DNA from: Endomychus coccineus
Lineage: Eukaryota > Arthropoda > Insecta > Coleoptera > Endomychidae
Reading direction: 5' to 3'
DNA length: 64,000 nt
Assembly (NCBI GenBank): GCA_958510875.1
Contig: OY294068.1
Coordinates: 78,983,978 to 79,047,977 of the forward strand
Part shown: positions 4,064 to 60,139 of the stretch, piece by piece
Layout: every line of letters begins with the position of its first letter
Position numbering within the stretch: position 1 is the first letter of the stretch
Translations under genes and position numbers: made by a program
The notes under the pieces: model-generated
Told to the model about the DNA's origin: nothing
The model's input: the letters and a program-made list of their open reading frames with translations, nothing else
Databases searched by the model: none

Positions 4064-4118
4064 TTTATTTGGCAATCAAAGAGAGCAATTTCTATCTAGT
4101 TTCCGTTACTTTAAATCT

Positions 4119-4127
4119 CGGGCGCCA
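4119..4127 (-). other. Gypsy-1 primer-binding site core
   Basis: On the minus strand TGGCGCCCG lies three bases inside the 5' LTR end. This sequence is complementary to the CCA end of lysine tRNAs. Homology to the tRNA fades after about 10 bases. Confidence 0.6.
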
Positions 4128-4720
4128 TTTTGTAACCTCCTTCCGCTTGAATGGTGAATTACAAGTGGGGAGGTTGTCACTTACTGTCCTCTTATGACAG
4201 TAACTGACCTGCTCGGGTTTCTTGAGGGTCCAGGTTCCCTTTTTATATAGGTTTTAAAATTGCTGTTTCTCTTTCGTGTGGATTGTCAAATAAAACAGAT
4301 ATTTCTTGCTTAACTAAGTTTATTAATTATCTCTATTTACATTTACACCAGCTATGTACAATCTATTTACAAAATGTTGCTAGGAACAGGCCGTTTTAAT
4401 GTGTTCGTTTTCCGTGTATAAAATAACGCGCTAATTAGATGTTTTCCTATCGTCGGGAGTCTCCACCATCTGCGTGAGATGGTAGACAAGTTTTTGTCCC
4501 TAGGTCTAGAAATGAAATGAATCGCGACAATCTAAATATTTAGTACACTGTTAACTTCGACGGAGCGTGGGTCGTGTATTCGCTCTGACCTGTATTTCAG
4601 ACGTAATTTCTTACGGAACGGGGTATAACGGACTAGGTTGATTTGTCAGCTATCGGCTATGACTGACTTAATAATTTCACAAGTCGGTCTCGGAGAGAAT
4701 CACCACGTAGCCCCTGAAAT

Positions 4721-19524: not shown

Positions 19525-19612
<88 letters not shown>
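19525..19612. repeat. (TA)n microsatellite
   Basis: About 44 uninterrupted TA units directly abut the left arm of the Penelope-like element. Frames translated across it as YIYIYI are artefacts. Confidence 0.97.
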
Positions 19613-19614
<2 letters not shown>

Positions 19615-29811: not shown

Positions 29812-29814
29812 AAA

Positions 29815-29823
29815 TGGCGCCCG
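29815..29823 (+). other. Gypsy-2 primer-binding site
   Basis: TGGCGCCCG begins three bases after the LTR end, with GAGCAGGGAC following shortly after. It resembles the 3' end complement of a lysine tRNA with two extra bases. Confidence 0.6.
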
Positions 29824-29973
29824 CGAGCAGGGACTTTTGAAAATTTACCGAGAGGGAATTTTATTTTTTTTTATTCCGAAAAGTGAATTGTTGAATAATT
29901 TATTGCAATTGAACCGGTAGTCCGTTTTGAATGAAATTTCAGAAATAGTGTGACAGAAAAACAAGCTTCAAGT

Positions 29974-30013
29974 CCCCGACGTTTCGAATACGTTTTCGAT
30001 CCATCCCCAGGAG
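29974..30013 (-). ncRNA. Hammerhead-like relic in Gypsy-2 leader, antisense
   Basis: On the minus strand CTGGGGA (30004-30010) stands where CUGANGA is expected. A stem II of GGATCG and CGTATTC, then GAAA and GTC (29978-29980), follow at normal spacing. One core base is changed (A to G), so self-cleavage is probably lost. The same sequence is in the Gypsy-3 leader. Confidence 0.45.
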
Positions 30014-30365
30014 TTTGTTTTTGAATTTTGGAAATTTGGAAAAGTTTTGACAGAAACTTGTTCCCCGTGCTCACCAAGGTTGTTTGGTGAAATTAGTTTT
30101 TCGATCCACCTCCCCGTTTAAGGGGAAACATCAAGTTTTTAACAGAGAATCTGACTGAAAAATCGATTGTTCCGTGAGGTGTAGAATTGTTAACTACACC
30201 TCAGTGTTTTGCCCAAATTTTGATTTTTACACATATTTTGCCCTTTGATTTTCCCAGTCAACCTTAACCCGGATTGGGCAAGTCATAGCTCCTTTCCCAG
30301 TAAATCGATACCAAGGAAGCCGTTGGTAACATTGAGATTTCTGATTCCGAATTTGATTGGATGAT

Positions 30366-31997: not shown

Positions 31998-32008
31998 CAA
32001 CGAGGGCT

Positions 32009-35000
32009 ATGCAGATTCCCGTTGTGAGAGCCTCGATAAAGGATGAAAAGCAAACTCATCTCGCGACAGTTGGTACCATTGCTCTGGATAAGGAATCTGT
32101 CACGACAGGAAAATGTGAAAATACCGCCGTATGTCCTAAAAGATTAACCGTAAAGTCGTCTGACGGTAAACTTCCGCCCACCGCCGCTGCTAAGAGTTCA
32201 CTGAATGTTGAAACCGCAGATACCGTGCGTAATCCAAACTCACCTAATACCCGTGAAAATTTAGGTGCAGATCACTGTGCTGTTCCGCGATGTGCCCAAC
32301 CGTTTATTATGCGAAATAACATAGAAACCCCTAATTCGATAAATTTTCCGAATTTAGAAAAAGAAAATATTCCAGGCCCATGTGTGAACTCCGAAAGAAT
32401 TATTTTCAAAAATACCGCTGTTATATCTTTTGCCGAAAACCGACCCTTTATAAAAGTGCGTGTACTAGGGAAAGATTTTTCTGCTTTAATTGACACCGGA
32501 GCCACCCGTTCTTTTATGAATGATCGTGTCGCTTGTTTATACCAGACCTCCAAGGTAAAGCCACTTCTTATCAATACAGTTGGTACTAGAATGGCCAATG
32601 GAAATTTGGTGCCTAGCACAACCGCTTACCGAATTTCAGTTAACGTAGGATGTGGTGAAATTGAAGCCGAGTTTGTACATTTACCCACATTATCACCCGA
32701 TATCGTGATAGGAATGGAAATTCTAAGTTCAGGGTTGTTTTCACTGCATCTACCGTCCGCCAGTGTGTATTTTAATGACAATTTGATACCGAGCAATGTA
32801 GATCAGGACACCGATTCGAAGAGTATTTTCCGAGAAACCGATTCAGTTGTTTTACCGAAATCAAAATTAGTTAAACACGTGCACTTTTGGGACGAAAAGG
32901 ATGCCCATCTTGCTACTTTGTCCGCAGTGGAACAGGGAAAATTAAACCGATTTTTAGGAACTGAACTTCCGTTATTTCAGAAGATTCAGGGAACCACACC
33001 ATTCGTACAACATGAAATCAAGTTGACGAAGAAGGATCCGATCAAACAGCGTTACCGACCGCAAAATCCGAGGATGCAGGCAATTATAAACGAGGAAGTT
33101 GACCGAATGCTAGCCAAGAATGTTATCGAACCTTCTAGCAGTCCGTGGAGTTCACCCGTGGTGGTGGTGAAAAAGAAAGATGGCAAGCCGAGGTTTTGCA
33201 TAGATTTCCGGATGATTAATAACATTTCCGTGAAAGATGCTTACCCTCTTCCGTATATCAGTGCCATACTGGACAAACTTCGTAGGGCCCGTTACATCTC
33301 AAGCATAGATTTGAAGCAAGGTTACTGGCAGATACCGCTGTCACCGGAAAGTAAACCCATCACGGCATTCACTGTTCCAGGCCGAGGTTTATTTCAATTT
33401 AAAGTTATGGCGTTCGGATTGCACTCCGCGCCGGCCACTTTCCAACGATTAATGGATGCCATCATCGGACCAGAAATGGATCCTCATGCATCCCATACCT
33501 AGACGATATCATCGTTATGGGAGATTCGTTTGAAGAACACTTGGCCAATTTGAGAGAAGTTTTCCGACGATTACGCCAAGCCAACTTAAAGATCAATCCA
33601 GAAAAGTCTCAGTTCTGCCGTACGTCTCTCAAATATTTAGGACACGTCGTTACCGCCGAAGGTATTCATACTGACCCGGATAAAATAGAAGCTATTATGC
33701 AAATTCCCAGCCCGTCAACTGTAAGAGGCCTCCGTCGTTTTTTGGGAGTCGCTTCTTGGTACCGTCGATTCATACCCTCATTCTCACAGGTTGTAAGTCC
33801 GTTGACCAGCTTATTGAAGAAAAACCGTCGTTGGAACTGGGGTGATGAACAACAAGCAGCATTTGACAAATTAAAGGTCATGTTGACGAGTGCCCCCGTG
33901 TTGGCTTGTCCTGATTTCAGCCGACAATTTACCCTACAGACCGACGCCTCTGATATAGGAATTGCGGCGGCGCTGACGCAAAACATAGAGGGAACGGACC
34001 GAATCATTGCCTACGCCAGTCGAACTCTGGCACCGGCCGAGAATAACTATTCCGTTACCGAAAAAGAATGTTTGGCAATTGTATGGGGCATTAACAAAAT
34101 GAGACCATATTTAGAAGGCTACCGATTTATCGTTCTGACTGACCATCAGTCGTTACGATGGTTACATTCTATCAAAAGTCCTAGTGGAAGATTGGCCCGT
34201 TGGAGCATTTTCCTGCAACAATATGATTTTGAGATCAAATACCGAAAAGGAGTTCTAAACCGTGTTGCAGACACCCTCTCTCGAGACCCTTTACCGTGTG
34301 GAGTTACGACCAGGGAAAGCCGTGATTTGTGTGTACTGGAGGATCCAGTTTCTTGTAATTGGTATAATTCCATGAAAAATAAAGTAAAGGAAAATCCCAC
34401 TGCCTTTCCCGACTACTGCATCCGCGATAAGCGTTTATACAGACATTTCTGGGATTCAAATGATTTAACTGAACCTGATATGTCTGACCCATGGAAAGTT
34501 AGTGTTCCTAAGCCGCAACGTAAGGCTGTATTAGAAGAAAATCATGATGCATCGACCGCTGGACACATGGGGGTTGCGAAAACCATATCCCGTATATCCC
34601 ATAGTTATTATTGGCCGGGGATGTTTCGCGACATAGCTCGATACGTCAGAGTGCTTGCATTGTCAGAGATATAAAATTTTGCAACAGCAACGACCAGGAC
34701 ATATGCAACCGTCCCTCAACCGCTACCCATGGAATACCGTCAGCATTGATCTGGTAGGACCCTTGCCTAGGTCAAGTAAAGGGAACTCGTATATCCTGGT
34801 AATGCAGGACCGGTTCACTAAGTGGGTGCAGTGTAAACCCCTCCGCAAAGCTACCGCGAAATCCGTCCGTGAAGCGCTATATACCGAAATCATTACTAGG
34901 TTTGGTTGTCCCAAAACTATAATATCAGATAACGGAACACAGTTTGAAAGCCGCATCTTCAAAAATATGCTGAAGGAGTTAGGTATTCAACACCGATTAA

Positions 35001-35626
35001 CACCGTCATATACACCGCAAGCTAATCCGGTAGAAAGAACAAACAAAACCATAAAAACGATGATATCCCAACTTTTTGAGACCGACCACAGAAAATGGGA
35101 TCATTACATGTCCGAATTTATGTTCGCCCTTAATACAGCCCGTCATGAAAGCACTGGTTTCACACCAGCCTTTCTGAATTTCGGTCGCGAATTGGTGATA
35201 CCTCCCGGAGTAAATCGCGGTCAACCGACCGATGTCAATTTTAATGAAGTAAACTTACGGGATGATCCCCAAGAAATTAACAAACACGTTAATCTTGTAG
35301 GGAAACTAGATGAAGTGTTTCAATTAGTCCGGATTAACTTAGCTAAAGCTTTTTCGCGGCAGAGTAATTACTATAACCTACGTCGCCGGGATTGGAGATG
35401 TCGGGTAGGGGACCGGGTGATGAAAGTGGAACATCATTTGTCATCCGCTTCACGTAACTTTGCAGCTAAGTTAGCACCGCGTTATTCAGGGCCATATACC
35501 GTGACTAGGGTAGTCTCACCGGTCGTGTATGATTTGAAAGATGACACCGGCAAGAGGGTAAAGCATACCCACATAAAGGATCTAAAGCCTTTCCATTCTA
35601 GATCTGAACATGAACCGTGCCAATAG
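32009..35626 (+). pseudogene. pol: Gypsy-2 pol: protease, RT, RNase H, integrase (two frameshifts)
   Basis: The protease motif FSALIDTGATRSF is at about 32479. RT follows with SSPWSSPVVVVKKKDG and SSIDLKQGYWQIPL. A one-base deletion at about 33490-33494 breaks the frame immediately before the catalytic YLDD (33496-33507). RNase H carries TLQTDASDIG, TEKECLAIVW and LTDHQSLRWL. The integrase zinc region HDASTAGHMG is intact until a second one-base deletion near 34650 inside the CLHC part. The rest (34655-35626) has [20 protein letters not shown] and NPVERTNKT (D, D and E) and a GPY/F-type C-terminal module (LAPRYSGPYTVTRVVSPVVY). Apart from the two deletions, all catalytic residues checked are present. 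Confidence 0.94.
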
Positions 35627-36128
35627 GAAAGCCCGTAAGATGACCCCTATAATGGAGCTGCATCCACTGGCCGCTGAAGGTCGAGAGAAGCAGGCAAGGC
35701 TGGAAGACCGCAGGCAGAAGGCGAAAGATTTGGCCAGGCAAATTAACGACCCCTTTCGTCGGCAATTTGAAATTTTAGCAAACATCGGTGCAGGAGGCTT
35801 TGGGGTTATATTAAAATGCCGGCATAAGGTAACCGAAGATATTTGTGTCGTGGACGTTACCGTCATTAAACAAATAAAGTCCGCCCTAACCGAACCGTAC
35901 CGCAACAAATCAGTTTTGGAAGACCGTTTTTTTTTTATTTTTGGAAAGAAGATCAGTTTTGGAAGACCGTTTTTTTTCATTTTTGGAAAGAAGATTTTAG
36001 TTTTGGAAGACAGTTTTTTTATTTTTGGAAAGAAGATTTTAGTTTTGGAAGACCGTTTTTTTTATTTTTGGAAAGAAGATTTTAGTTTGGAAGAAGTTAA
36101 TTTTTTTTGGAAGAAACCATATATTTGA
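35610..36128 (+). pseudogene. Gypsy-2 accessory ORF: protein-kinase N-lobe fragment
   Basis: The ATG at 35610 lies inside pol and overlaps its last 17 bases in another frame. A charged N-terminal part (residues 1-50) precedes FEILANIGAGGFGVILKC, in which G60, G62 and G65 form a kinase glycine-rich loop. DICVVDVTVIKQ follows as beta-3 with Asp82 where the ATP-binding lysine is expected. At about residue 100 the homology stops and the frame enters the GAAGA-rich minisatellite. It corresponds in place to the full kinase ORF of Gypsy-3. No catalytic loop survives, so it cannot be a kinase. Confidence 0.72.
35915..36125 (+). repeat. GAAGA-rich minisatellite before the Gypsy-2 polypurine tract
   Basis: Units of roughly 45 bases built on TTTTGGAAGACCGTTTTTTT and TTTTTGGAAAGAAGATTTTA repeat about four times with small changes. 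It replaces the rest of the kinase domain. Confidence 0.88.
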
Positions 36129-36240
36129 AGATTTTCATGGAAGAGCATGGAAGTTAATGTTTTGTTTTTGTAGAAATGCCTAATTCGATTTATGTAAGCC
36201 AACGTTGAACGAAAAAAAAAATATTTTTTTTTCTTTCGGA

Positions 36241-36253
36241 AGTAAGGGGGGAA
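36241..36253 (+). other. Gypsy-2 polypurine tract
   Basis: AGTAAGGGGGGAA ends exactly at the 3' LTR start TGTAACGAAG. Confidence 0.8.
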
Positions 36254-38117
36254 TGTAACGAAGTTCCTAAATTCTACATCAATGTTATAGATTGTCGATT
36301 GAGGCATACGCATATTACTTATAATTCGACGTAATTGAATATTCTAAATCGTCATAAGGTAATCAATAAAGGTATTATCCGGTGTAACCATTTGCATTTT
36401 AAAAGTCATATTTGTTTTCGTTTAATTCATAAATCGTGTACAGTGAATTCCATTCAAATCGTAGTAAAACCGTGTCATTGTCAGATAACGAAACAAGCGT
36501 CATAGGTAAAAAAGCAGGTTTTCACCAATTCCTCGCCGGCGAGGATATACCGGAGCAGAATGTCCACTAGCTGGGAGCATATAAAAGCCAGTCGGTGGCT
36601 GCGGAAGTGAGTCGAGTTTAGACAGTCTTACCGAACAAGACAAAATTTGAGAAACCGAAGCTTAACCGTAAAACTAACAAAACCGAAATAATAGTCAGGT
36701 AATTACAAGTCCACTTAAAACAGAGAATCTCACCGTTTCCTCAATTGAGTTTAAAGTATTGGTTTTTCATGATTAAAGAGAGATAAAACAAAGGTATTGT
36801 ATCGTGGTGACCGATCGTGTTTCGGTTGAATGAATAAATTTAAAGGTGAAGTTAACACCAGTTCAGGTTTTCGGGAACCAACGTCTAATCGCTGGAGGTG
36901 GCTGTATTTCTAGCGCGACTACCCTGGGGTACAGCCATTAAAGGTGAAAGGGCGGGAAGTCCTGACAACTGATTAGGTGATAATTTCTATTATATCATTT
37001 ATAGTGGTGCGAAGATCACTGTCTGACGAAACGGGCGGGCGAACTTTCGGATCTGAAAAGGGCAGAATTTCTAGCGCGACTACCCTGGGGTTCTGTCTGA
37101 AGTAAGTGAAGGGTACGTCTCAGCAACGTCAACAGACGGTAGGTTGGTTACACCATTTCCGTGAATTGAGAACTTGCAGTCTGACGAAACGGGCGGGCGA
37201 ACTTTCGGATCTGAAAAGGGCAGAATTTCTAGCGCGACTACCCTGGGGTTCTGTCTGAATTAAGTGAAGGGTACGTCCCAGCAACGTCAACAGACGGTAG
37301 GTTGGTTACACCATTTCCGTAAATTGAGAACTTGCAGTCTGACGAAACGGGCGGGCGAACTTTCGGATCTGAAAAGGGCAGAATTTCTAGCGCGACTACC
37401 CTGGGGTTCTGTCTGAAGTAAGTGAAGGGTACATCCCGGCAACGTCAACAGGCTGCCGGTTTTTTTCCGTCGGTATAGTATTTAATATTGTCTGAAGTTG
37501 AGGATTGCGAAGCAACACTTTGTTCTCTCTCTCGGCAGTAGATATTTTAGGACTGGCCTGTAACAAGGCGTATATTAGTTGAGATAACTGAATGAGATTT
37601 ATGCATTAGATTTGCTTGTTGCTTTACCAATTTTGCTAGTGTTTTCCCGACCGGAGCTTATTACCCGCCGTACAATTACCCGCTTTGCACGCTTTGGTGT
37701 TCGTAGTTTCTTTTTAAGACTTAGCCTAATTCCCCGGCTTAATAGTTAAGAACGCTTCCGCTAGTATTCCCCGCTTACGTCCCGTTGGTGTTGGTTATTA
37801 ATAACTGTAACCCTACCTGAATAAATGTTTGAATAACCTTAGTTATATATTAGTGATATATTACATCTTCTCTGTACTATCCCAATTGAGAAATAACCCA
37901 GAAACCTACGAGTGGTAAGTAAAATCTACAACTCAGTAGCTACTTCGAGCCATCTCGAGAACTTTGACCCCTGGAATTTATTTCTTCACTGAAGTTGCCC
38001 TGGCACAGGCTGTTTAACGCAGTCAGAAGAGACCGTCACCACAGAGAACTCTTCCGGGGAGTAAACCTCGCAAACAAAATCTGGCGCTCGAGACGAAATA
38101 CCGAAAAGTATGTTACA
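36254..38117 (+). repeat. Gypsy-2 3' LTR (1864 bp)
   Basis: It matches the 5' LTR but is longer. It has three 158-bp units (starts 37022, 37180, 37338) against two, a 14-base insertion near 37670, and an extra stretch of about 71 bases near 37967-38038. Confidence 0.95.
37022..37495 (+). repeat. Three 158-bp tandem units in the Gypsy-2 3' LTR
   Basis: TCTGACGAAACGGGCGGGCG starts at 37022, 37180 and 37338, exactly 158 bases apart, each unit containing CTAGCGCGACTACCCTGGGG. A degenerate related motif with CTAGCGCGACTACCCTGGGG also lies upstream near 36910. Confidence 0.95.
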
Positions 38118-45440: not shown

Positions 45441-47468
45441 TATCACTTTTTTTTATTTTTCTTCTTCTCATAGGGCAAAGAGTCATATAATGAGTGATGG
45501 TCAACCTCAATGACGGTCTATATTTCTTGCAGATGCTAATATTTCTCATAAGAAATTGTAGGTTTTCTTTTGTAAAGGGGTGTTTTATAAATTGTCATGT
45601 TCTGACAGTCACGTCTATGGGGCAATATATGCCACCCTTCAGAGTAGTCCAATGTGAACCAAACATCTTCACTTGATGAATATTTCAATTGTCTTATATC
45701 AACAATCACAGGATCACCTGTTTTTTTTCCTGGTCATATCGAAGGAAAATTGTGTGCAAGTTCATACTGCTTGAAAAATGTATAATCTAGTGATTTGATG
45801 CAATAAGGTTGTTTGTGACGGGCCATACGCGATGTAATCAATCGGCGAATTTATGGGTGGATGAAAATAGTGTTCCAGGGTAGAGTGAACGGAATCTGCT
45901 TCCATCATCGTATGACCCTCCTCTAGGTAAAGTTGTTGAATAGCTATATCTTTTTCTTTTGCAAAATCACTTAGGGCGATGGTTAATGTTTTGTTTCTAT
46001 TTTGGTAGTTACATCCGTCGGATATGAAAATGACTGATTTGAATTCAATTGGGATATAACTGAGATAATCTATCAAACAAGATGTGAATTCATTACATGT
46101 AACGCCACCATTAGCTTCATGCCAAACATATAAAGAGACATTTTCATCATTCAGTGCATATATCGTGAAATTGTGGAGTTGTAATTTCATTTTATAATAG
46201 CTCTGAGATGCTAATACTTTCGGACATGTTAGGACACTCTGTAGATCCAAAGTAACAACTAAAATGTCAGGATTCTTCATCGCCATATCTTTCATTCTTT
46301 GTTTAGCTGCTCTACCTGCTTTTTCTTATCTCGATGTAGCTCATACTCATTTTGAGAAACAGTTCCAACTTTGAATCCAACGCATGTGTCGCACTGGTCT
46401 TTGCGAGGTTTATGAACTGAAATTTTCTCTGATTTCAGAACAGATTTGAATAATTTCAGATTATCAGGTATTTTATTTTTTCCTCTGCACCATTCTTTGT
46501 AAAATTTGAACATGTTTTGCTTGGATATGAAAGCATTATCCACATAATTCATTTTTGAAGTTGCCCTGCAATAATGAGATGGAACTCTGGGTATTATTTC
46601 ATCAAGCCAAAGTTTCACAGAATCTTCTCTATCTTTTCTCTTGACTTCTCTAATCAACCGTGCTCTCTTCGTTGCTGATAGATTAGGAATTTCTTTGTGC
46701 TTTTTTTTTTGGAGTAACTATTGCACTCTCATCTGATGTAGATGTGTTGATATGTTCATCTGGCCTAGTCCAACGTTTCAAAGTATCCTCTCCTACACTG
46801 AGAGTATTTAAAAACAGTACTCTGCAAACTTTAAGACGGTTTCCACTTGATTTTTTCAGGAAATAATCATGACCCATACTTTTCTTCAATGCTCCCTCAC
46901 CTTCCCGTTCCCGTACAGATTTCCTTCTACGTTTCACTGGTCTTGTTCCAACAATCCCTTTAACATAAATTCTCATTTCGTTCCATGACCATAATTTCCA
47001 GAAATATTTGAAAATACTTTCTCTGTCGTTTTCAGAAATGAGATGACACCTAAACGAATTTTCAAGCAATTTTTCTATCTGAGTCACATGCTTATACCTT
47101 TCTTTCATTTTTCTTACTTCCCTTGTGCAATCGTGTGTTATAATTTTTTCCTTGTCTCTTTTATAGCCAACATAGGATTTTCCTTTCAATCTCCTTGATG
47201 CGGTTTCATTCCTTGTTTTTGTTACATTTCCTTCTTTCTGCAACTTCCCTATCTCTATACCCTCCAAATCTTCCACCAATTCCTCTTTATTTATTTTTTC
47301 TTCGTCTTCCGCTGAAATAATTTCATGTACTTCTCCCATAATATTCTGTATGTTTTCGGAATCTTCCGTAAGTTCGGTATATTACATTCCTTCAGTTATT
47401 TGTATAAATTCATTATTGTTTTCCAATGTGGGAATATCGTTTTGGGTCAATTTCAGGTCTTTTAATGT
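45440..47468 (-). pseudogene. Uncharacterised DDE-like multicopy protein, 3' part (split by Gypsy-3)
   Basis: From the Gypsy-3 junction at 47468 the frame reads LKDLKLTQNDIPTLENNNEF, is interrupted by TAA near 47381, then gives NIMGEVHEIISAEDEE and a long charged region to 46683. A frameshift in an A run near 46703 leads to PRVPSHYCRATSKMNYVDNA, and after KDQCDTCVGFKVGT a further frameshift near 46292 leads to VVTLDLQSVLTCPKVLASQS, LYVWHEANGG, VIFISDGCNYQNRNKT and EEGHTMMEADSVHSTLEHYF. The aspartates of LDLQ and SDGC with the acidic EAD motif resemble a DDE/RNase H-like core, but this is inference. The C-terminus degrades to about 45445. Many similar proteins occur in insect genomes without a known function. 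Confidence 0.6.
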
Positions 47469-49418
47469 TATAACGTGACCTTGTCGCTTTTCGGTAAATT
47501 GCTTACTGCGGTAAGCTTCGAATCCTCGGGCGCCAGATTTTCTGAAGTTTAACTCCTTTTGAGGACTTCTGATAGGGTCCCCTCCACAAGGCTTGTCACT
47601 ATGCTATCTAAAGATAGCCTTGTCCCTAGGGTAGCTACAGTGAATTATAACCAGAGTCCAATGGGCAGAAAACAGTATCGAAATTGTAGGCTTTAATTAC
47701 AATTGATACCTGGTTATAACTTAGCTCGTTAAAGATGGAGCAGAAATAATTTAATAAAACAGGGAATTCCAAATACACTTTCAGAATAATCAATTTAAAT
47801 GCAATTGAACGGTATTATTTCACAAAATTTACACCCAGACGGAAAATGTAATGAAGCTCAAACGGTAAATGAAAACTCTTTCAAGAAATCAACTCTACGA
47901 TAAGTTCGGTCACTAAATTCCATTCAGCGGTACGGGATCGGTTGATGAATGATCAATTTGCGGAAAAGTACGAATCAAACAGGTCTCAGCGTAATGAGCG
48001 GTATTCGGTAAATTTTAGATAGCAGCACTAATAAATGAAATGTTCAAATCACACTACGATATATTCAGTTATTAATGCGGTTGGTTCGGAAAATATTGTT
48101 TGCACTAGTTTTCCGATTGTACGATATCAGATTTTACTATGTTTCGGTTAATTACTCTAATTGAGTTTATTCTGTCATCTCACCCACCCTTGTACTAACT
48201 TTCACGGAGTACCCGGTAATTGTGTGACAGTGTTAGATTTTATACACTTTATAGATTCAGAATCAGGGTTTATACTTCCGGGGTGACACAGTGTGCACAA
48301 ACCCTAACTATCACATCTGCAATAACCCCTATATCCACGGCCGAGGACTTCTCATAGTATTAAGGGAATTATTACGATTCTCAATCACACAACCACCCCC
48401 AGCTTATACTTCTGGAGTGACACAGTGTGCACAAGCCGTTGGTGGTTTGGTCGTCTTAGGATATACTTATACTTCTGGAGTGACACAGTGTGCACAAATA
48501 TACCAAAGACGCCCCTGTCGTTCAAACATACACACTCTGTACGCACCACACAATTACTTGAATATTTCAATTCACGCGCGAATTCAAATCGTGCGCGATT
48601 CGACCTAGGATAAACTAGGATAAATTCAAATTCACCAATTCAAATTACTGAATACTACGGAACTCAGGTATCGTACAAACGTTTACCAATTACAATAACA
48701 ATCATAAATTACGGAAATCAATATATCGTAATGCTCAAAAATATAAACTATTTGCTATCATTTACCTTTTTGTAAAATTCACAAACACAAACGGAACACT
48801 ATTGTTACTTCACAGCTTTTAAATATCTGACTCACACTCGAATAAATTCAAAAACACTAGAGAGCTACTTTACTGATCAAAATTCAGAAACACAAGAGAG
48901 AGATCTTTCGGCTGTCACGGCTTTTATATGTTTTCCGAGGTTCTGGACAGGTCTGCTCCACCAAATCCTTATTTTTCTGCCAATGGTTTTTACTTATGCC
49001 CCGAACAATGGTTAAAAGTGACGCTACTTTTCAGATCTAAAATTCGCGCTCATGATATCACACCAGTTCTTCCCGGCGGACTAAACAAGTGTTATCGGAG
49101 TTTTTAGGTTGTTCGCCCTTTTTATACATAAGGCTGCACAAAGTTTGGTGTCTTAACTGGCCAGACCCCTGTTTTTGCAACATATTTTATCGGAATGGAA
49201 TGCAATTTTGAACGGGCATGAATTAGATTCATCTATTTGAATAATTATACTTATTTGAAATTACGGACATTTAGAAAAGTGACAATCACGAAATACACAT
49301 TCGGAATTCATTCATATCTATTGAAATAATGAACTGTTCAAACTGAAATTACATGTAACATCCGTATTTATTGCCTGATCTAAATTGAATAATCTTTCAA
49401 AATTTAAGTTTCGTTACA
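47469..49418 (-). repeat. Gypsy-3 3' LTR (about 1950 bp)
   Basis: On the minus strand it runs from TGTAACGAAACTT to GGTCACGTTATA. It contains three short direct motifs TATACTTC(C/T)GG(G/A)GTGACACAGTGTGCACAA near 48269, 48407 and 48468. The plus-strand frame at 48291-48608 occurs in both LTRs and is a shadow, not a gene. Confidence 0.95.
48921..48928 (-). promoter_or_regulatory. Candidate TATA box in Gypsy-3 LTR
   Basis: TATAAAAG on the minus strand, repeated at 59317-59324 in the other LTR. A second candidate (TATGTATAAAAAGGGCGAAC) lies nearer the LTR start around 49112-49131 and matches a similar block in the Gypsy-1 LTR. The latter is the more conserved. Confidence 0.4.
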
Positions 49419-49430
49419 TCCCCCCCTAAG
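49419..49430 (-). other. Gypsy-3 polypurine tract
   Basis: CTTAGGGGGGGA on the minus strand ends directly at the 3' LTR. Confidence 0.8.
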
Positions 49431-50063: not shown

Positions 50064-50686
50064 TTACCATTGGTTTCGCTGACATGGGCACGTTCGGCAG
50101 CGCACGCACCGTGATTTCGGTGGTACCACAATGGCTGGTTTATAGCCGGATATGCATTTTCCTCTTGCCACATCGGAGGGAGCCGGTAACTGCTGTCTCT
50201 GCCTGTTCTGGTCTTTATTTGGGATCTTCTTCGAGGTGGTAGTGTTCAGACAACAACATTGCTTTGACATAACACCTATCTTCACGCAACGTGAGCAAAA
50301 TAGACGCACTGTCCGGCTGCATCTTTCTCTTCGGTGTCCTGGGTATCCACAGCGCCAACATAATTCCCACAACTGGACGGGCAGGTAGATCGGTTCCATC
50401 CGCGTCTGGGTCGTCGGAGCAGCTGGGATTTTCATAATTTGTAGTTCGGACTGTACCTCTTCCGGTTTCGGCGGAGATGATGAGGCATCCAACATGGTTG
50501 ATTTCGGTTGCTCATCCAGATGTCCCGGTGTGGACGGTGAGGATTGGATTTCCAAAGGATCGGGACTTGGTGCGGATTCTATGGAAAGGACTGACATACG
50601 CCGGAGACACACAAACGACGAATCCACCATATTTTGCAGTGCTTCGTCCAGCACTATCTCAATATTTCGGACGGTTCATCTGACAT
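50064..50686 (-). CDS. Gypsy-3 accessory zinc-knuckle ORF
   Basis: An open frame of 196 codons (50064-50654) begins VLDEALQNMVDSSFVC and has an acidic, Pro/Ser-rich first half. It then carries CWRCGYPGHRRERC, a canonical CCHC knuckle, followed by FCSRCVKIGVMSKQC, a histidine-less second cluster of the kind found at the end of the Gag proteins. A Cys-rich, basic tail ends CVRCRTCPCQRNQW. An upstream ATG (MSDEPSEI, near 50686) would be in frame after one base change. It lies downstream of the kinase, separated by a TA array, and has no counterpart visible in Gypsy-2. It looks like a duplicated or captured Gag nucleocapsid module with its own coding capacity, or the former C-terminal part of the kinase protein. 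Confidence 0.6.
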
Positions 50687-50822
50687 ATTATTTCCCTGTG
50701 AACATTGGATCAAAATAAGTAATTATACTGCTACTGACATTTTGTCCATCGGTTTTCTATATTAGTTTCATCACTGGGTAAGCAATTCAACATCTCTGGG
50801 TTCATGGGTGGAATAAGAGACA

Positions 50823-50957
<135 letters not shown>

Positions 50958-50960
50958 CTC

Positions 50961-52064
50961 TTACCGATTTGGTGGGATCACCATCCGCACTGGCAATTTT
51001 CCAGGCAGACCCACGATTTGGAGAAAACGACGCTTATTCCTTGGCCGGTACAGGTTCATCGGTTCTAATAACTGATTAGACCATCCCTTCGGGTCCTCGG
51101 TTTGTACCAGCCAACAGAACGTTCCCGAGGTAAGCTTCGGCTCTTCCGCTGCCTCCCCCAACCAAGGATAGGCAGATGCCTCTTCCACCCCAATTCTTAC
51201 GGTGGATTCACGGCTGAGGAGGAGCGAAAGGTACTCCACAAACTTCAGGGACAGTCTTGCAGGAGGGCATCCAAAATCCACCGCCCCTTCCTCTATTGCC
51301 TTTAAGGTTCCCGTGAGGGTCTCGTCGGCAAAAGGTAGGAAATCCTGGACCAGCTGGTAGCCCAGGACCCCACAAGACCAAACGTCTACTGCGGTTCCAT
51401 ATGGTTTTCCTAATATCATCTCTGGTGCCATGTACCTCGGCGTACCCGCGATTCCATGCCACACGGTGGCATCGGTGATCTCCTTGGCCAACCCAAAATC
51501 GGCTAGCTTGAATCGCGGTTCATTCCGAGTACCGAACACCAGGATATTTTCCGGTTTGATATCCCGGTGTGCAATATTCTGCGAGTGACAGAATACCACG
51601 GCTTGTAAGACCTGGTATAAAATGGTCTTGGCCGTTGATATCTGTAACGGACCCTGCTCCAGCATGTCAAATACACTACCATGTGGTGCTAATTCCATTA
51701 CTAAATAATGGTTTGCCCGCCCTACAAATTCCTCTACCAGCTTTACGATATTTTCATGTTGCAGGCGGGATTGAATTAGCACTTCCTGGGCTGCAGACGG
51801 ATGTGGTCCGGTCTTGGTTCGTTTACCGCTAAAAATTTCAGCGGCAAACTCACCACCCAGGTTACTCAGGCATTTGTGCACAACAGCTTGCCCACCGCTA
51901 CCTAAACGAGGTCCCACGAGGTATCTGTCATGGAATAACGGACGTGTTGGGGGTTTTGGGGAGGCTTGGGGAATAGGAAGTACTAGGAAACTGGGCTGGT
52001 TCGTGCGTTGTCGCTGGTGGGCAACCACCTACCGTAACTCAGGCCTGGTGAATTTACTATTCAT
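50961..52064 (-). CDS. Ser/Thr protein kinase ORF carried by Gypsy-3
   Basis: The natural start seems to be the ATG at 52064, overlapping the pol stop in ATGAATAG. Codon 12 is TAG (52029-52031), and the frame is then open for 355 codons from 52028 to a stop at 50961. Numbered from 52028: glycine loop PRLGSGGQAVV (40-50), beta-3 FAAEIF with Glu64 where lysine is expected, helix-C Glu82, HRDIKPEN (154-161), DFG (177-179), GTPRYMAPE (195-203), DVWSCG (215-220) and a C-lobe ending near YPWL (277-280). The tail of about 75 residues is basic and not recognised. Full-length domain architecture, with a look closest to CAMK/CASK-type kinases by eye. It lies between integrase and 3' LTR, so it is transcribed with the element. 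Catalysis is doubtful with Glu64, and this copy needs the TAG bypassed. Confidence 0.85.
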
Positions 52065-53382
52065 TTCCACTTTCTGGAAAGTTAGGAACATTATACGGCT
52101 TCAGATCTTTGATATGGACTCGTTTCACTTGCTTGCCATCTTCGCCTTTCAGGTCGTAAATGACCGGAGAAATTACTTTGATTACCGTAAACGGACCTGT
52201 ATATTTCGGAGCCAATTTAGCGGCAAAATGTCGAACACTAGAAGACAGGTGATGCTCTACCTTCATTACTTTATCACCCACGTGACAACGCCAATCTTGA
52301 CGACGGAGATTGTAATAACGGCTTTGGTGGGTAAAAACACGGGATAACTGGATACGAACCAGTTGGAAAGTTTCACGTAATTTGTCTAATCTAGTTCGGT
52401 GTTTTGGAATCTGTACCAGATTCGGATCGGTAGGAATATTTTCCTCGGTCTCCACCGGAGCGGTAAAGGAACGGACTATCGAATTTGGAACTTCAAGTTG
52501 TCGGCCAAAATTTAAAAAGGCAGGTGAAAATCCGGTCGATTCATGTGGGGCAGAATTTAAGGCAAATAGAAAATCGGGTAGAAACTTATCCCATTTTCTG
52601 TGGTCTTCATTGCAAAATTGTGCAATCATGGTTTTTAAAGTCCGGTTTGTTCTCTCCACGGGATTGCATTGTGGAGTATATGTAGGAGTGAGGCGATGCC
52701 TAATTCCAAACTCCTTCATGAGTATCTTGAAAACTTTACTTTCGTACTGCGTCCCATTGTCGCTGATAACAGTTTCCGGACAACCAAAACGAGTTATGAT
52801 CTCTTCGTAGAAGGCTTGAGGTACCGCCTGCGCGGTAGCTTTTCTCAACGGCTTACACTGTACCCACTTCGTAAAACGGTCCTGCATGACAAGAATAAAA
52901 TTGTTTCCCTTGGCGGATCTTGGTAACGGTCCTACCAAATCGGTGCTTACACATTTCCAAGGAAACTGATTTACTGTCGGCTGCATAAATCCAGGCTTCT
53001 GCTGTTGAGACACTTTGAAAGCTTGGCACTGCGTACATCCACGCACGTACTTCGCTATATCGCGGAACATCCCCGGCCAATAATACTTGTGGGATATTCG
53101 CGCAATCGTCTTGGCAATACCTAAATGTCCTGCAGTCGGACTGTCATGGTTTTCTTTCAGAACGTTCAACCGGAGCGGTTTCGGAACACAAAGCTTCCAC
53201 GGATCTCTCATTTTCGGTTCGGACAAGTCATTAGAGTCCCAGAAGTGGCGGTACAACCGATTATCTTTAACACAATAATTCGGATACGCTTCTGGACTCT
53301 TTTCAACTTCGGCTTTCTTTGAATTGTACCAGTTACAATTCACGGGGTCATTCAGTACGAATAACTCTTGATTGTCATCCAT
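52057..53382 (-). CDS. pol: Gypsy-3 integrase portion of pol (open)
   Basis: An open frame of 441 codons. After a linker [16 protein letters not shown] come the HHCC zinc domain ([21 protein letters not shown]), the catalytic core ([28 protein letters not shown] giving D, D and E) and a C-terminal GPF-type module ([20 protein letters not shown]) before [12 protein letters not shown]. It ends in TAG at 52057-52059 within the overlap with the kinase start. Integrase itself looks intact, although the reading frame has been disconnected from RT-RNase H by a frameshift near 53390. Confidence 0.93.
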
Positions 53383-55250
53383 TCCTTCCTGTTCGGCAAT
53401 GGATCACGTGACAGGGCATCAGCCACTCGATTTAACACTCCTTTACGATATTTTATCTCAAAATCGTACTGCTGTAGGAAAATGCTCCACCGAGCCAATC
53501 TCCCACTCGGACTCTTTATTGAGTGCAGCCATTTCAATGACTCATTTTATCAATGCCCCACGCAATAGCCAAACATTCCTCCTCGGTAACAGAGTAATTA
53601 TTCTCGGCGGCTGTTAATGTTCGGCTAGCGTAGGCAATGATTCGGTCGGCTCCCTCAATATTCTGTGTCAATGCCGCAGCAATTCCCACATCCGAAGCAT
53701 CGGTTTGTAAAATAAATGGCCGGTTGAAGTCAGGACAAGCCACCACAGGAGCACTGGTCAACATATCTTTCAGTTTGTTGAACGCGATTTGCTGCTCCTC
53801 TCCCCAACTCCAACGTCGATGTTTCCTCAATAAGGCGGTCAATGGACTGATAATTTTCGAGAACGACGGTATGAAACGGCGGTACCACGAAGCTATTCCT
53901 AAGAAACGCCGGAGTGCCCTCACTGTAGACGGGCTTGGAATCTGCTGGATAGCTTCGATTTACTCAGGGTCGGTATGAATACCCTCGGCGGTGATTACAT
54001 GGCCTAAATACTTTATCGACGTGCGGCAGAACTGGCATTTTTCCGGGTTTATTTTCAGATTAGCTTTCCTTAATCGGCGGTAAACCTCTCTTAAATTCGT
54101 GAGATGTTCCTCGAACGTCTCTCCCAGAACAATAATGTCGTCCAAGTAAGGAAAGGCGTGTGGATCCATATCCGATCCGATGATGGTATCCATCAACCTC
54201 TGAAACGTTGCCGGTGCGGAACGTAAACCAGAGGCCATTACCTTAAACTGAAATAAGCCACGGCCTGGTACAGTAAATGTTGTTATGGGTTTACTTTCCG
54301 GTGTCAGCGGTATTTGCCAATACCCTTGCTTCAGGTCAATGCTAGTAATATATCTAGCCCGTCGTAGTTTGTCCAAGATGGCACTTAGATAAGGCAGTGG
54401 ATATGCATCTTTCACGGAGACTTTGTTTATCATCCGGAAATCAATGCAAAATCTCGGTTTTCCATCTTTCTTCTTCACCACCACAACGGGTGAACTCCAC
54501 GGACTACTTGACGGCTCGATGACTTCCTCTGCCAGCATTCGATCAACTTCCTCGTTGATGATTGCTTGCATCCTCGGATTCTGCGGTCGGTAACGCTGCT
54601 TTATCGGATCGGTCTTTGTTAATTTTATTTCGTGTTGAACCAGCGGCGTGGTTCCTTGAATTCCTTCAAAATATTTCATTTCTGTTTTCAGAAATCGGTT
54701 CAGTCTATCCTGTTCAGTTTCCGACAATGTTGCTAGTTGTGTCTCCACTTCATCACAGAAGCGCACACGTTTGACTGCCTTCGGTCCGGAACTAGCTTCA
54801 TTGGAAACTTTTTCACAATTTGTCCCAATCAAATTGTCTTTATAATACACCCCAGCGGATGGTAGATGTATTTTAAACAAACCGGAGCTCAAAATCTCCA
54901 TTCCTATTATCATATCCGATAATAACGACGGTAAATGCACGAATTCTGCTTCAATCTCACCACATCCAAAATGCAATGAGATTCGGTACGCGGTAGTACT
55001 AGGAACCAAACTACCATTGGCCATCCTAGTGCCTACGGCCTTGAGGGGAACTGGTCTTAACCCGGAATCCTCACATAACCTAACAACTGCGTCATTGATG
55101 AAAGAACGGGTGGCTCCGGTGTCCACGAGAGCCGAAAAAATTTAACCTAATACCCGGACTTTTATAAATGGTCGGTTTTCACCTAAAGTTTGAGCAGCGG
55201 TATTTTTAAAGATAATTCTTTCATCACACGGCGCTAAAACACTCTCATTT
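53352..55250 (-). pseudogene. pol: Gypsy-3 protease, RT and RNase H (multiple lesions)
   Basis: Protease LVDTGATRSFIND lies just after an in-frame TAA at 55142-55144. RT shows SSPWSSPVVVVKKKDG, TSIDLKQGYWQIPL and an intact PYLDDIIVL. A TAA at 53960-53962 (HTDPE-stop-IEAI) breaks the RT to RNase H junction. RNase H has LQTDASDVG and TEEECLAIAW, but a deletion of about 50 bases near 53535 removes the segment equivalent to MRPYLEGYRF and the TDH aspartate seen in Gypsy-2. A frameshift near 53390 then precedes integrase. Upstream, 55285-55587 is the degraded pre-protease linker. Confidence 0.92.
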
Positions 55251-55478: not shown

Positions 55479-57133
55479 CTACCTCGCAGTCCCGCGGACG
55501 TTTCCCTGTCCCGGACACGGACAATCTCGCGACATTATCCCAGGGCGGCGGCATCTTGAGCAAAATAATTTCGGTGGATTCCGACAATTATTTTTGCCAT
55601 GCCCCGTTTCCCCACATCTCCAACATGAGATGGGCTGTGTTGCGGTATTCGGCTTCAGCCTGGTAGGGCACTGCGTCCTGAAGTGGCCGCAGAGACCACA
55701 ATCCCAACAAGTCTGCTCAGGGATCTTCGGTATCCCAGACTTGACTGGCGATGACGGTTCAGGTGCAGGTTGCCTAACCTGCGGCTCCATAGTCCTTACT
55801 GTCGGACTGGAATTTGTGCCCTCACTGACACTGGGAAAATCTTCTTCTGCATGAGTTTCTGCTCAGCCTGCAGGTTCTCATACTCTTTTGCCTGTAACAT
55901 TAACGACGGCACGTCGTTAAAAGTCCCTTGCCGGATAAATTGCCTATATTCCGGCAATAAATTTCGGTGCAACCAGAACAGTTCCCGTTCTGCGGTCATT
56001 GCAACATGTCTCCTGATAAGTGTTTGCATATCCACAACATATGCAGCGGCGCTCTCATTCATGCGTTGATGCCTGCGGCTGATCTGTACTTCCAGATCAA
56101 TGTGTTAATTGGCATCCATGAACATGAAGTCTCTCTGGAAATCGGCAAACGTAGCCCAGCGGCTACGATTATTCCGATACCACAATAGTGCGGTCCCATC
56201 CAAAACTTCTGGTAACGATAACAATAAGGAGTCTTTTGGTGTATTTAGCTGCATAGCGCTCTCATCTAGGCGTTCCAGGAACGTAGCGGGATCTGACGTT
56301 CCATTGAATTGAATTCTGTATTGATTCAAAGGCGGAGCACTACCCGGAGCTGAGTAACTATATCCAGGCACATGCTGAACATGACTGAACGGGATATTGT
56401 ACCCTTGCGGAAAAACAGTAACAGGAACATAGTGGGCAGGTGCTTGCGGAACAAATGGTACCTGCGGAACCTTAGGGGCTTGTGGAACAAATGGTAACTG
56501 TGGAACCATCGGTAATTGCGGAACGGTCGGTAATTGACTCCACGCCGGTGTCACATCTGACGACGTGGTCCTATAAATCGGAGGGTTCATAGGATTCGGC
56601 GGGGATGAATAGATCAGCGTTTGAATCGGTGGTGCCGTCATTACCACAGTGTTCGTGTATGTTACTGTATTCGTAGTGGACGTAGTTGACCAATACGACG
56701 GCTGTATCCTCGGTGTGCTCCTTATTGCCGGTCTTGTTTGAACCCCCGAAGGACTAAACGTTGGTGTTGTGTTTAGTGCCACTTCGGTTGTCAAAGCCTT
56801 GGTTAGTGTTGCCATGGTACTGGCAATCTTTTCCAACATTCCACGCGGAGGGCGTATTATTCCTTTACGGACCCCCTTTACGCACCTACGGCGTAAATCT
56901 TCGGCGGATCCATTATGGTCAATATCAAGATTGGCCAGGACTTCCTGAAGTTGTGATTTCTTCAGTAAGTAAATCCAGTTGACTTTCGAATCAACTTCCG
57001 TAGTCTCAGTCTGGCTATTCTCGCTATTAGAGTAGAATTGCGCCATTTCGTCAAAATGTGCTGCCATTTCCTCCATACTGGTAGGCGCAGGCTGCGGCAC
57101 CTTAGGTATAGCACCTGTATACCCAGGGAACTC
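55479..57133 (-). pseudogene. gag: Gypsy-3 gag (start lost, stop and frameshift)
   Basis: Colinear with Gypsy-2 gag. The position of the Gypsy-2 ATG is ATA here (about 57133, IEFPGYTGAIPKVPQP). The SAP-like stretch WIYLLKKSQLQEVLANLDID, a proline-rich part with VPQLPMVPQLP repeats, and the capsid (FNGTSDPATFLERLDE, LDGTALLWYRNN) follow. A TAA at 56105-56107 replaces the Tyr of the ANYHIDLE motif, and a frameshift lies near 55795. The knuckles CWDCGLCGHFRTQC, CWRCGETGHGKNNC and CSRCRRPGIMSRDC are preserved. Confidence 0.92.
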
Positions 57134-57614
57134 TATTTTTCCAATCCAATTCAAAATCAAAATTTTCAACCCGAAAAATAAATTACTTTTCTCAGGGGTA
57201 GGTAACGGAAGAGGGTGCGGTAACCAAAACCAGTCCACACCTTCCTTCCAATAAGGCAGAAGCAATCAAATCACTTGCCCCAATTTGGGCAACGTAACTT
57301 TGATTTCGGGAGGTAACTCCAAAACGGTTGGGCCAATCCGCCCAAAAATATTACCAACGGCTTCCTTGGTATCGATTTACTTGGAAAGGAGCTATGACTT
57401 GCCCAATCCGGGTTACGATTGACTGGGAAAATCAAAGGGCAAAATATGGGCAAAAATCAAAATTTGGGCAAAACACATTGTAGTTAACAATTCTACACCT
57501 CACGGAACAATCGATTTTTCAGTCAGATTCTCTGTTAACAACTTGATGTTTCCCCTGAAACGGGGAACAAGTTTCTGTCAAAACTTTTCCAAATTTCCAA
57601 AATTCAAAAACAAA

Positions 57615-57817: not shown

Positions 57818-59814
57818 TATAACGTGACCTTGTCGCTTTTCGGTAAATTGCTTACTGCGGTAAGCTTCGAATCCTCGGGCGCCAGATTTTCTGAAGGTTA
57901 ACTCCTTTTGAGGACTTCTGCTAGGGTCCTCTCCACAAGGCTTGTCACTATGCTATCTAAAGATAGCCTTGTCCCTAGGGTAGCTACAGTGAAGTATAAC
58001 CAGAGTCCAATGGGCAGAAAACAGTATCGAAATTGTAGGCTTTAATTACAATTGATACCTGGTTATAACTTAGCTCGTTAAAGATGGAGCAGAAATAATT
58101 TAATAAAACAGGGAATTCCAAATATTAAAATATATAATGATTTTAACAAGTACACTTTCAGAATAATCCATTTAAATGCAATTGAACGATATTATTTCAC
58201 AAAATTTACACCCAGACGGAAAATGTAATGAAGCTCAAACGGTAAATGAAAACTCTTTCAAGAAATCAACTCTACTATAAGTTCGGTCACTAAATTCCAT
58301 TCAGCGGTACGGGATCGGTTGATAAATGATTCAGAATGATCAATTTGCGGAAAAGTACGAATCAAACAGGTCTCAGCGTAATGAGCGGTATTCGGTAAAT
58401 TTTAGATAGCAGCACTAATAAATGAAATGTTCAAATCACACTACGATATATTCAGTTATTAATTCGGTTGGTTCGGAAAATATTGTTTGCACTAGTTTTC
58501 CGATTGTACGATATCAGATTTTATTATGTTTCGGTTAATTACTCCAATTGAGTTTATTCTGTCATCTCACCCACCCTTGTACTAACTTTCACGGAGTACC
58601 CGGTAATTGTGTGACAGTGTTAGATTTTATACACTTTATAGATTCAGAATCTAGACAATTAGGGTTTATACTTCCGGGGTGACACAGTGTGCACAAACCC
58701 TAACTATCACATCTGCAATAACCCCTATATCCACGGCCGAGGACTTCTCATAGTATTAAGGGAATTATTACGATTCTCAATCACACAACCACCCCCAGCT
58801 TATACTTCTGGAGTGACACAGTGTGCACAAGCCGTTGGTGGTTTGGTCGTCTTAGGATATACTTATACTTCTGGAGTGACACAGTGTGCACAAATATACC
58901 AAAGACGCCCCCGTCTTTCAAACATACACACTCTGTTCGCACCACACAATTACTTGAATATTTCAATTCACGCGCGAATTCAAATCGTGCGCGATTCGAC
59001 CTAGGATAAACTAGGATAAATTCAAATTCACCAATTCAAATTACTGAATACTACGGAACTCAGGTATCGTACAAACGTTTACCAATTACAATAACAATCA
59101 TAAATTACGGAAATCAATATATCGTAATGCTCAAAAATATAAACTATTTGCTATCATTTACCTTTTTGTAAAATTCACAAACACAAACGGAACACTATTG
59201 TTACTTCACAGCTTTTAAATATCTGACTCACACTCGAATAAATTCAAAAACACTAGAGAGCTACTTTACTGATCAAAATTCAGAAACACAAGAGAGAGAT
59301 CTTTCGGCTGTCACGGCTTTTATATGTTTTCCGAGGTTCTGGACAGGTCTGCTCCACCAAATCCTTATTTTTCTGCCAATGGTTTTTACTTATGCCCCGA
59401 ACAATGGTTAAAAGTGACGCTACTTTTTAGATCTAAAATTCGCGCTCATGATATCACACCAGTTCTTCCCGGCGGACTAAACAAGTGTTATCGGAGTTTT
59501 TAGGTTGTTCGCCCTTTTTATACATAAGGCTGCACAAAGTTTGGTGTCTTAACTAGCCAGACCCCTGTTTTTGCAACATATTTTATCGGAATGGAATGCA
59601 ATTTTGAACGGGCATGAATTAGATTCATCTATTTGAATAATTATACTTATTTGAAATTACGGAGATTTAGAAAAGTGACAATCACGGAATACACATTCGG
59701 AATTCATTCATATCTATTGAAATAATGAACTGTTCAAACTGAAATTACATGTAACATCCGTATTTATTGCCTGATCTAAATTGAATAATCTTTCAAAATT
59801 TAAGCTTCGTTACA
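57818..59814 (-). repeat. Gypsy-3 5' LTR (about 1997 bp)
   Basis: Matches the 3' LTR with few substitutions. It is longer mainly through a short insertion near 58122-58155 and small differences near 58330 and 58652. It is followed by the ATGT duplication at 59815-59818. Confidence 0.95.
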
Positions 59815-60139
59815 ATGTCTTTTCAGTTCCTAGTTGTAAGATTGTAATCATTCCCGTTTCTGTATCTTCAATACAACTTTCACTAATTTCCTATTCCAAA
59901 TATTTTTCACTGAAAAGAAAACAATAATACAAAAATTCCAAAATGAACTTAAATTACCTAGTTAGAAACATACCTATTGATTGTATCTTGAGAAGTCACC
60001 GTTTCCATAAGTAATGTTCCGTCTTCCAAAGTTCGATAATTGTGAAATCAAATTTGTTCTCTATGTTTATCTCAGTTTTTTCATTATTATTGACATTGCA
60101 GGCATTCTGCAAAACCTTTCTAGTTCTAGACGAAAACAT
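59815..60139 (-). pseudogene. Uncharacterised DDE-like protein, 5' part with exon 1
   Basis: ATG at 60139 (MFSSRTRKVLQNACNVNNNE). After a frameshift, exon 1 ends with a GTATGT donor at 59973. The intron is 59910-59973, with acceptor TTTTCTTTTCAG. Exon 2 reads SEKYLE, a TAG, then EISESCIEDTETGMITILQL up to the Gypsy-3 insertion point, and continues in frame at 47468. It is the start of the gene whose rest is at 45440-47468. Confidence 0.6.

Follow-up and report, generated by a model that had tools for sequence, protein, structure and literature searches.

The locus analysed here is best compared with LTR retrotransposons and retroviruses that carry genes in addition to gag and pol. LTR retrotransposons of bdelloid rotifers contain captured, family-specific third open reading frames (ORF3) that are described as expressed from spliced messages (Rodriguez et al. 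2017, PMC5408684); the types described there include env, a DEDDy exonuclease, a GDSL esterase, and coiled-coil and transmembrane proteins, and a kinase goes unmentioned in the main text of that paper. The beetle element likewise has an enzyme-coding frame beside gag and pol, but its enzyme is a protein kinase. Host genes have also been added to viral genes in crocodilian endogenous retroviruses and, as src, in Rous sarcoma virus (PMC4299795), which resembles the present element in carrying a protein kinase; these, however, are vertebrate retroviruses. In insect Ty3/gypsy elements of the MDG1 group, conserved accessory proteins are encoded by the small frames sORF1 and sORF2, the latter transmembrane and fusogen-like (PMC11952523); these frames precede gag, whereas the beetle kinase and its neighbour ORF3 follow pol. 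Other nearby literature concerns giant elements (PMC6431247) and accessory domains (PMC6338049). As in Drosophila gypsy and other errantiviruses, the third gene lies between pol and the 3' LTR, but here that slot holds a kinase and a nucleocapsid-like gene, and no Env was noticed at the loci read. Within the open-licence literature of PubMed Central, and among the top-ranked papers where many matched, we found no family of LTR retrotransposons that retains a Ser/Thr kinase. A signalling enzyme here joins the LTR-element accessory genes so far found described.

The window, a stretch of 64,000 nucleotides from the genome of Endomychus coccineus, contains one such kinase-bearing element. We posit that, in all probability, an ancestral element captured the kinase, selection retained it, and it now forms a facultative module expressed through splicing.

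The window element and its two accessory frames

A Ty3/gypsy element of 12.3 kb, assigned to subfamily A, occupies the minus strand of the window with two LTRs, an ATGT duplication and a polypurine tract. Its parts follow in the order 5' LTR, gag, protease and reverse transcriptase (RT), integrase (INT), kinase, ORF3, polypurine tract and 3' LTR, as listed below.

57818..59814, minus strand: 5' LTR (TGTAACG...GTTATA), from self-comparison and LTR alignment, with a TATA box and a donor-like AAAAG/GTAAATG within it
47469..49418, minus strand: 3' LTR, from self-comparison and LTR alignment
47465..47468, no strand: target-site duplication ATGT, left copy, from alignment and flanks
59815..59818, no strand: target-site duplication ATGT, right copy, from alignment and flanks
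56108..57265, minus strand: N-terminal open frame of gag, 386 codons stop to stop, from the ORF scan; similar to gag of the second element
55482..56104, minus strand: C-terminal part of gag with nucleocapsid zinc knuckles, split over two frames
53963..55141, minus strand: pol, protease and RT frame (Pfam RVT_1, E 2e-35, and gag-asp_proteas)
53534..53959, minus strand: pol, a separate frame between RT and INT in the window copy, RNase H region by position only
52060..53403, minus strand: pol, integrase (H2C2, rve core and SH3-like C-terminus, from Pfam)
52062..52064, minus strand: start codon of the kinase, overlapping the end of pol; an in-frame TAG at 52029-52031 interrupts the window copy
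50961..52028, minus strand: protein kinase frame, 355 codons plus stop (Pfam Pkinase), with Glu replacing the beta-3 Lys at aa 64
50064..50675, minus strand: ORF3, 203-codon frame plus stop, nucleocapsid-like CCHC zinc-knuckle protein
49419..49427, minus strand: polypurine tract AGGGGGGGA, adjoining the 3' LTR

Paired LTRs, a short target duplication and a polypurine tract, together with the pol order of protease, RT and integrase evident from Pfam matches and coordinates, place the element in Ty3/gypsy (Metaviridae). The LTRs are about 2 kb long and, apart from a few indels, differ by about 1% (19 of the 1954 bases aligned), so the insertion is young; its gag and pol frames are interrupted. 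A candidate primer-binding site resembling TGGCGCC follows the LTR in a second element of the window and is imperfect in this one. In the A LTR (57818-59814, 47469-49418) a motif resembling TTGTGCACACTGTGTCAC..GAAGTATAA occurs three times and is a possible regulatory repeat, and long AT dinucleotide runs lie at 19525-19614 and at 50829-50950, the latter directly past the kinase stop and between kinase and ORF3.

The 355-codon frame matches Pfam Pkinase at 187 bits (E 5e-55). Its AlphaFold2 model has a pLDDT of at least 90 at 213 of 355 residues, mainly in the kinase domain, and a low pLDDT in the C-terminal tail, and in Foldseek this model scores best (E about 1e-26) against CaMKII and DAP kinases; by domain and predicted fold, then, the frame belongs to the protein kinase superfamily. 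An earlier note on this DNA, made from its letters, had described a complete Ser/Thr kinase on the coding strand of a gypsy element, between the integrase stop and the 3' LTR, with the same ATGT duplication on the outer sides of both LTRs. The frame itself, its minus-strand placement between the integrase frame (53403-52060) and the polypurine tract (49427-49419) as judged from coordinates and Pfam, and the duplication as seen in the LTR alignment and flanks all stand. The window copy calls for correction. The frame has no start codon at its head, a TAG (52031-52029) separating it from the ATG at 52064, and the beta-3 Lys, present in 118 of the 120 database matches listed (best 120 of 2844), is replaced by Glu, which leaves the set of active-kinase motifs (GxG, beta-3 Lys, alpha-C Glu, HRD, DFG, APE) incomplete. 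The in-frame TAG after the start and the exchange of the beta-3 Lys make it improbable that the window copy encodes a working kinase, and it is probably a decayed or dead representative of a type that is still living. Taken by itself, an open frame says little in a young copy, since in simulations 43% of trials still left it open after 21 random substitutions, and it is the evidence from the family that decides.

The earlier note had also overlooked a second extra frame after the integrase, the zinc-knuckle ORF3 (50675-50067). Its product of ~200 residues has CCHC knuckles that are 51% identical to the element's own nucleocapsid over 37 residues, and comparison with the copy at locus L015 shows that in the window copy the frame opening with the ATG at 50686 is disrupted close to its beginning. 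Database relatives of ORF3 amount to 12 short proteins, two of them from the beetles Gonioctena quinquepunctata and Coccinella septempunctata.

Kinase-bearing copies and kinase-less relatives

The kinase search covered the host genome (906 Mb, 129 contigs) and returned 367 first-look candidates for the window kinase and 330 for a subfamily C kinase, of which 114 and 106 were scored. With the window kinase as query there were 121 genome matches, host kinases among them, falling into identity classes of mostly 75-94% (A), near 47-56% (B) and near 30% (C); the matches of lower identity include some host genes, and a subset of them was read. The C query gave 107 matches, including 14 that span 383 or more of the 388 residues; 8 of the 14 contain no stop.

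A total of 25 kinase loci (12 A, 8 B, 5 C), chosen for their fuller matches, were fetched with flanks. In 23 of them (all but L018 and L021) integrase precedes the kinase on the same strand, and in 24 (all but L028) ORF3 comes after it, L010 having only a 29-residue piece of ORF3. All 12 A loci continue into LTR-like DNA, 6 of the 8 B loci into a polypurine tract followed by TGTAA, and all 5 C loci into both a polypurine tract and LTR-like DNA; integrase also precedes the kinase at two more C loci, L041 and L042, for which the flanks were shorter. The multiple copies with pol-kinase organisation that the earlier note had proposed to look for are thus present in number and on several contigs, with pol, kinase and ORF3 preceding the polypurine tract or LTR. 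The window itself contains a second family member on its other strand.

28193..38117, plus strand: second gypsy element, subfamily C, with LTRs at about 28193-29811 and 36254-38117
35610..35846, plus strand: C kinase remnant, the first 79 codons, truncated by a large deletion, 90% identical to the open C kinase of L030

No ORF3 was found by tblastn after the kinase remnant of this second element, and an apparent Asp at the beta-3 position of the remnant was rejected as a kinase residue, since it comes from the deletion junction. In three other C elements (C2:126837547, C1:171244361 and C3:97024666) the kinase match stops after 43 residues (two loci) or 107 (one); with a well-kept integrase beside it, these are possibly transposing deletion derivatives.

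Integrase searches gave 8077 first-look candidates for the window INT and 8287 for the C INT, of which 94 and 103 were scored, and INT-kinase adjacency in A and C was assessed by comparing coordinates by eye. The 94 A-type INT copies scored are 89-100% identical to the query; a kinase match lies directly downstream in 4 of them and none is listed in the other 90. Among the scored C INT copies, 29 have an identity of at least 89%, with a long kinase match downstream in 19, a fragment only in 4 and none listed in 6. At two A-type loci, L043 and L044, the bases equivalent to window positions 52058 to 50763, containing the kinase, are replaced by 14 unaligned bases, after which the ORF3 acceptor-like site and start codon follow; L043 continues through the whole of ORF3, a polypurine tract and LTR, and L044 diverges from the family soon after the ORF3 start. 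Since a listed kinase adjoins only 4 of the 94 A-type INT copies scored, elements can amplify without the kinase, and as far as these sequences indicate it is a facultative module, conserved yet dispensable. Kinase-bearing and kinase-less sisters within one genome constitute a natural experiment on what a selfish element gains from a phosphorylating enzyme.

Selection, origin and module histories

Substitution was compared among 6 of 13 A copies (window included), 5 of 8 B copies and all 5 C copies; copies with stops or frameshifts were omitted or used for their open part only. A and B kinases are 49-53% identical, and their kinase domains differ with a pN of 0.29-0.32 and a pS of 0.78-0.81, which represents saturation. 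Over the whole frame the A-B pN/pS is 0.43-0.45 with saturated pS, so that the true ratio is lower. Since synonymous sites are saturated while amino acid changes are far fewer, this comparison indicates that purifying selection maintained the A and B kinases through their divergence, and the dN/dS analysis among copies proposed in the earlier note therefore gave an affirmative answer at the level of A against B. In simulations the window frame stayed open in about 2% of 4000 trials with 106 random substitutions and in none with 479, a number equal to 45% of sites, the estimated A-B difference. Pairwise dN/dS inside subfamilies ranges from 0.22 to 0.84, a spread which, as expected, would fit a mixture of selection and decay after insertion. 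The A-C and B-C kinase comparisons (pN/pS 0.65-0.67) have saturated pS, are uninformative in size and constitute little evidence alone. A kinase kept through subfamily divergence will have helped the element at some stage, and we envisage that selection retained it while at least two, and probably three, subfamilies diverged. On this view selection would have kept the kinase within a lineage of insect-type LTR retrotransposons for a time long enough to saturate synonymous sites. The earlier proposal of an ancestral capture retained by a family is accordingly borne out by copy number, by the host matches described below and by purifying selection, with the qualification that the window copy is decayed and the kinase facultative.

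Database proteins matching the element kinases are general eukaryotic kinases, mostly CaMK-like, at 26-39% identity (best 120 of 2844 and best 120 of 2027), with no close relative among the matches listed; the second protein search scored the 7998 candidates that shared most words. CaMKII and DAP kinases are nearest in both sequence and fold (about 29-37% identity), and differ from the A, B and C kinases in that the latter have a tail without known relative. We call the kinase CaMK-group-like by similarity only. In a tree of 52 rows, of the kind the earlier note had suggested, A, B and C group together (SH-aLRT 86, the joining branch not being strongly supported) with A+B at SH-aLRT 98, inside no named CaMK clade and outside the CaMKII clade. 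The six host kinases that were read and used as outgroup look, from their sequences, titin/MLCK-like, MSK-like, PAK-like, TSSK-like, PKA-like and PKG-like, and match the element kinase at 25-33%. No host gene near-identical to it occurs among the genome matches read, for which a part of the weak or partial matches was fetched. A scan of viral contigs with the kinase gave 6 stretches fitting a pattern, none of them a relative, and one with the integrase gave no match; 42 phage records contain kinases, and the 20 listed are 24-31% identical.

Src is a tyrosine kinase, whereas the kinase here is of Ser/Thr type. Src is also near-identical to its host gene, and kinase capture in vertebrate retroviruses, as with the src of Rous sarcoma virus, is a recent event. 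Unlike Src, the element kinase has no close relative that we found and is spread through multi-copy subfamilies; near-identity to one host gene, by which oncogene capture is recognised, is absent from the six non-element kinases read. We suggest that an ancestral Ty3/gypsy element took up a CaMK-group-like kinase coding sequence, intronless in the open copies read, in the slot between pol and the polypurine tract, and that ORF3, with its knuckles like those of gag nucleocapsid, would have entered together with or next to it.

If instead one host mRNA had recently been picked up and the kinase were passive cargo of the window copy alone, the copy might well look as it does, broken by a TAG and the loss of the beta-3 Lys. 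This reading, which the earlier note had tied to a lack of other carriers and to a near-identical host gene, is refuted by the presence of many copies in three subfamilies and on several contigs, with the same slot and neighbours and without any such host gene among the matches read, and we give it practically no credence. Nested insertion or duplication, by which kinase and ORF3 of another element or gene were inserted into gypsy copies, could draw on the relatives of ORF3 that exist as separate short proteins in other assemblies and on the AT repeat between kinase and ORF3 in the window. However, in the loci read INT directly precedes the kinase and a polypurine tract or LTR comes after ORF3, and the order is common to A, B and C although these are strongly diverged; no kinase-ORF3 unit with terminal repeats of its own was noticed in the 25 loci, and we consider this origin very improbable. 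A capture of the C kinase from a source different from that of A and B, in a slot prone to gene capture, accords with an overall identity of A and C kinases of about 26%, with the branch joining them, which is not strongly supported, and with a third gypsy element of the window (G1) that holds a different frame after pol. Against such independent captures stand the A+B+C group in the tree, a weak similarity of the tails and the same ORF3 in all three subfamilies, which leave it unlikely. An alignment of the C-terminal tails of A/B with that of C has P 7.5e-4, but 1 of 60 shuffles scored higher than the real alignment; tail homology was demoted from proof of a single origin to a suggestive observation. 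A single ancient capture is the simplest reading, which we advance with modest confidence.

The abundance of kinase-less A elements can be read in two directions. For the abundant A branch we prefer a loss of the kinase over a gain, since elements of B and C carry it at the same place, ahead of the same ORF3. Alternatively, kinase-less A elements could be ancestral, the kinase-bearing ones having acquired the module through recombination with an element resembling B or C. Among the A-type INT copies scored, 90 lack a listed kinase and 4 have one, and A-B divergence is greater in the kinase than in pol (0.68-0.69 at fourfold sites versus 0.47-0.50 for INT and RT), both of which favour a gain; the slot and ORF3 shared by B and C make loss in one A branch the simpler account, and a gain seems to us a credible if not a probable history. 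Between A and C, fourfold-site divergence is 0.49-0.53 for RT but 0.72-0.77 for INT. As kinase, INT and RT do not have a common history or rate, recombination among subfamilies is likely, failing which the modules would evolve at differing rates. At the C loci L029, L031 and L032, RT is about as near to A as B is and integrase is much farther, an unevenness that may represent a mosaic or uneven evolution inside pol.

Expression, catalytic state and possible roles

Splice-like signals occur ahead of both accessory frames.

52074..52075, minus strand: putative 3' splice site (AG) 9 nt upstream of the kinase start codon, at comparable positions in A, B and C
50696..50697, minus strand: putative 3' splice site (AG of ttcacag) preceding the start codon of ORF3 at 50686

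Across the aligned copies of A, B and C, an acceptor-like AG stands 5-9 nt ahead of the kinase ATG and 1-9 nt ahead of the ORF3 ATG, the strings before ORF3 being ttcacag (A; ttcacaag in the A copy L017), tttttacag (B) and ttcgttacag (C). The window A and C LTRs each contain a TATA box followed about 120-160 bases on by a donor-like AG/GTAA, which is one of several in C; no simple donor consensus was found between LTR and gag in these two elements, the candidates lying inside the LTR. Taken together, these signals suggest that kinase and ORF3 are probably made from spliced subgenomic RNAs. More specifically, a donor in the LTR leader would be joined to the acceptor before each start codon. The env of errantiviruses is made from a spliced subgenomic RNA.

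All motifs checked (GxG, beta-3 Lys, alpha-C Glu, HRD, DFG and APE) are intact in eight copies, namely L009 (A), L021, L022 and L023 (B), and L029, L030, L031 and L033 (C), all of them open and L009 so from start through stop; an active kinase is therefore expected somewhere in the family. Catalytic residues are partly lost in the window copy, L010, L024, L025, L026 and L032. Among open or nearly open copies, L010 has HRDIN, and L025 has HRN, no APE and a changed glycine loop. The C kinase frame of L032 is open with HRD changed to QWD, and its catalytic loop is probably dead. Loss of the beta-3 Lys as a family trait was considered and rejected, as the Lys is kept in the A copies L009, L010, L011 and L014 and in the B and C copies read.

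Possible substrates include Gag, the ORF3 protein and host factors; the earlier note had proposed Gag, integrase or a host factor. We posit that the kinase would most likely phosphorylate either RNA-binding proteins of the element (Gag nucleocapsid or ORF3) or a host factor of silencing or cell state. Enrichment of R/K-x-x-S/T sites in ORF3 was rejected on the counts (3 versus 4.5 expected in A, 5 versus 4.5 expected in C), and these sites thus lend no support to ORF3 as the substrate of a basophilic kinase. The same lack of enrichment favours a kinase that acts on the host (cell state, silencing or immunity) and not on element proteins, comparable to Src of Rous sarcoma virus, and kinases carried by retroviruses offer a precedent (PMC4299795); the present data do not separate host from element substrates, and we rate a host target at slightly below an even chance. 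The abundance of relatives with the same pol and no kinase implies that the kinase would be needed in some settings only, or would act in trans. More speculatively, the element lineage may run its own phospho-regulation, with a captured Ser/Thr kinase and a duplicated, nucleocapsid-like and RNA-binding protein as an accessory pair and with carriers helping the kinase-less majority in trans. Kinase-less derivatives would then outnumber carriers because the kinase works in trans, and the carriers would be the helpers of a much larger element population; we regard this scheme as doubtful.

The third, more divergent gypsy element G1 (window 1-4200, minus strand; L034) has an integrase about 51% identical. 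Its post-pol slot contains a different frame of 172 codons stop to stop with a basic C-terminus, and a strong splice-acceptor-like tttctttccccag directly precedes the ATG of that frame. Elsewhere in the window (42844-44458, minus strand), frames read from their translation resemble a DDE transposase of pogo/Tigger type that has a PHD-like zinc finger at its C-terminus.
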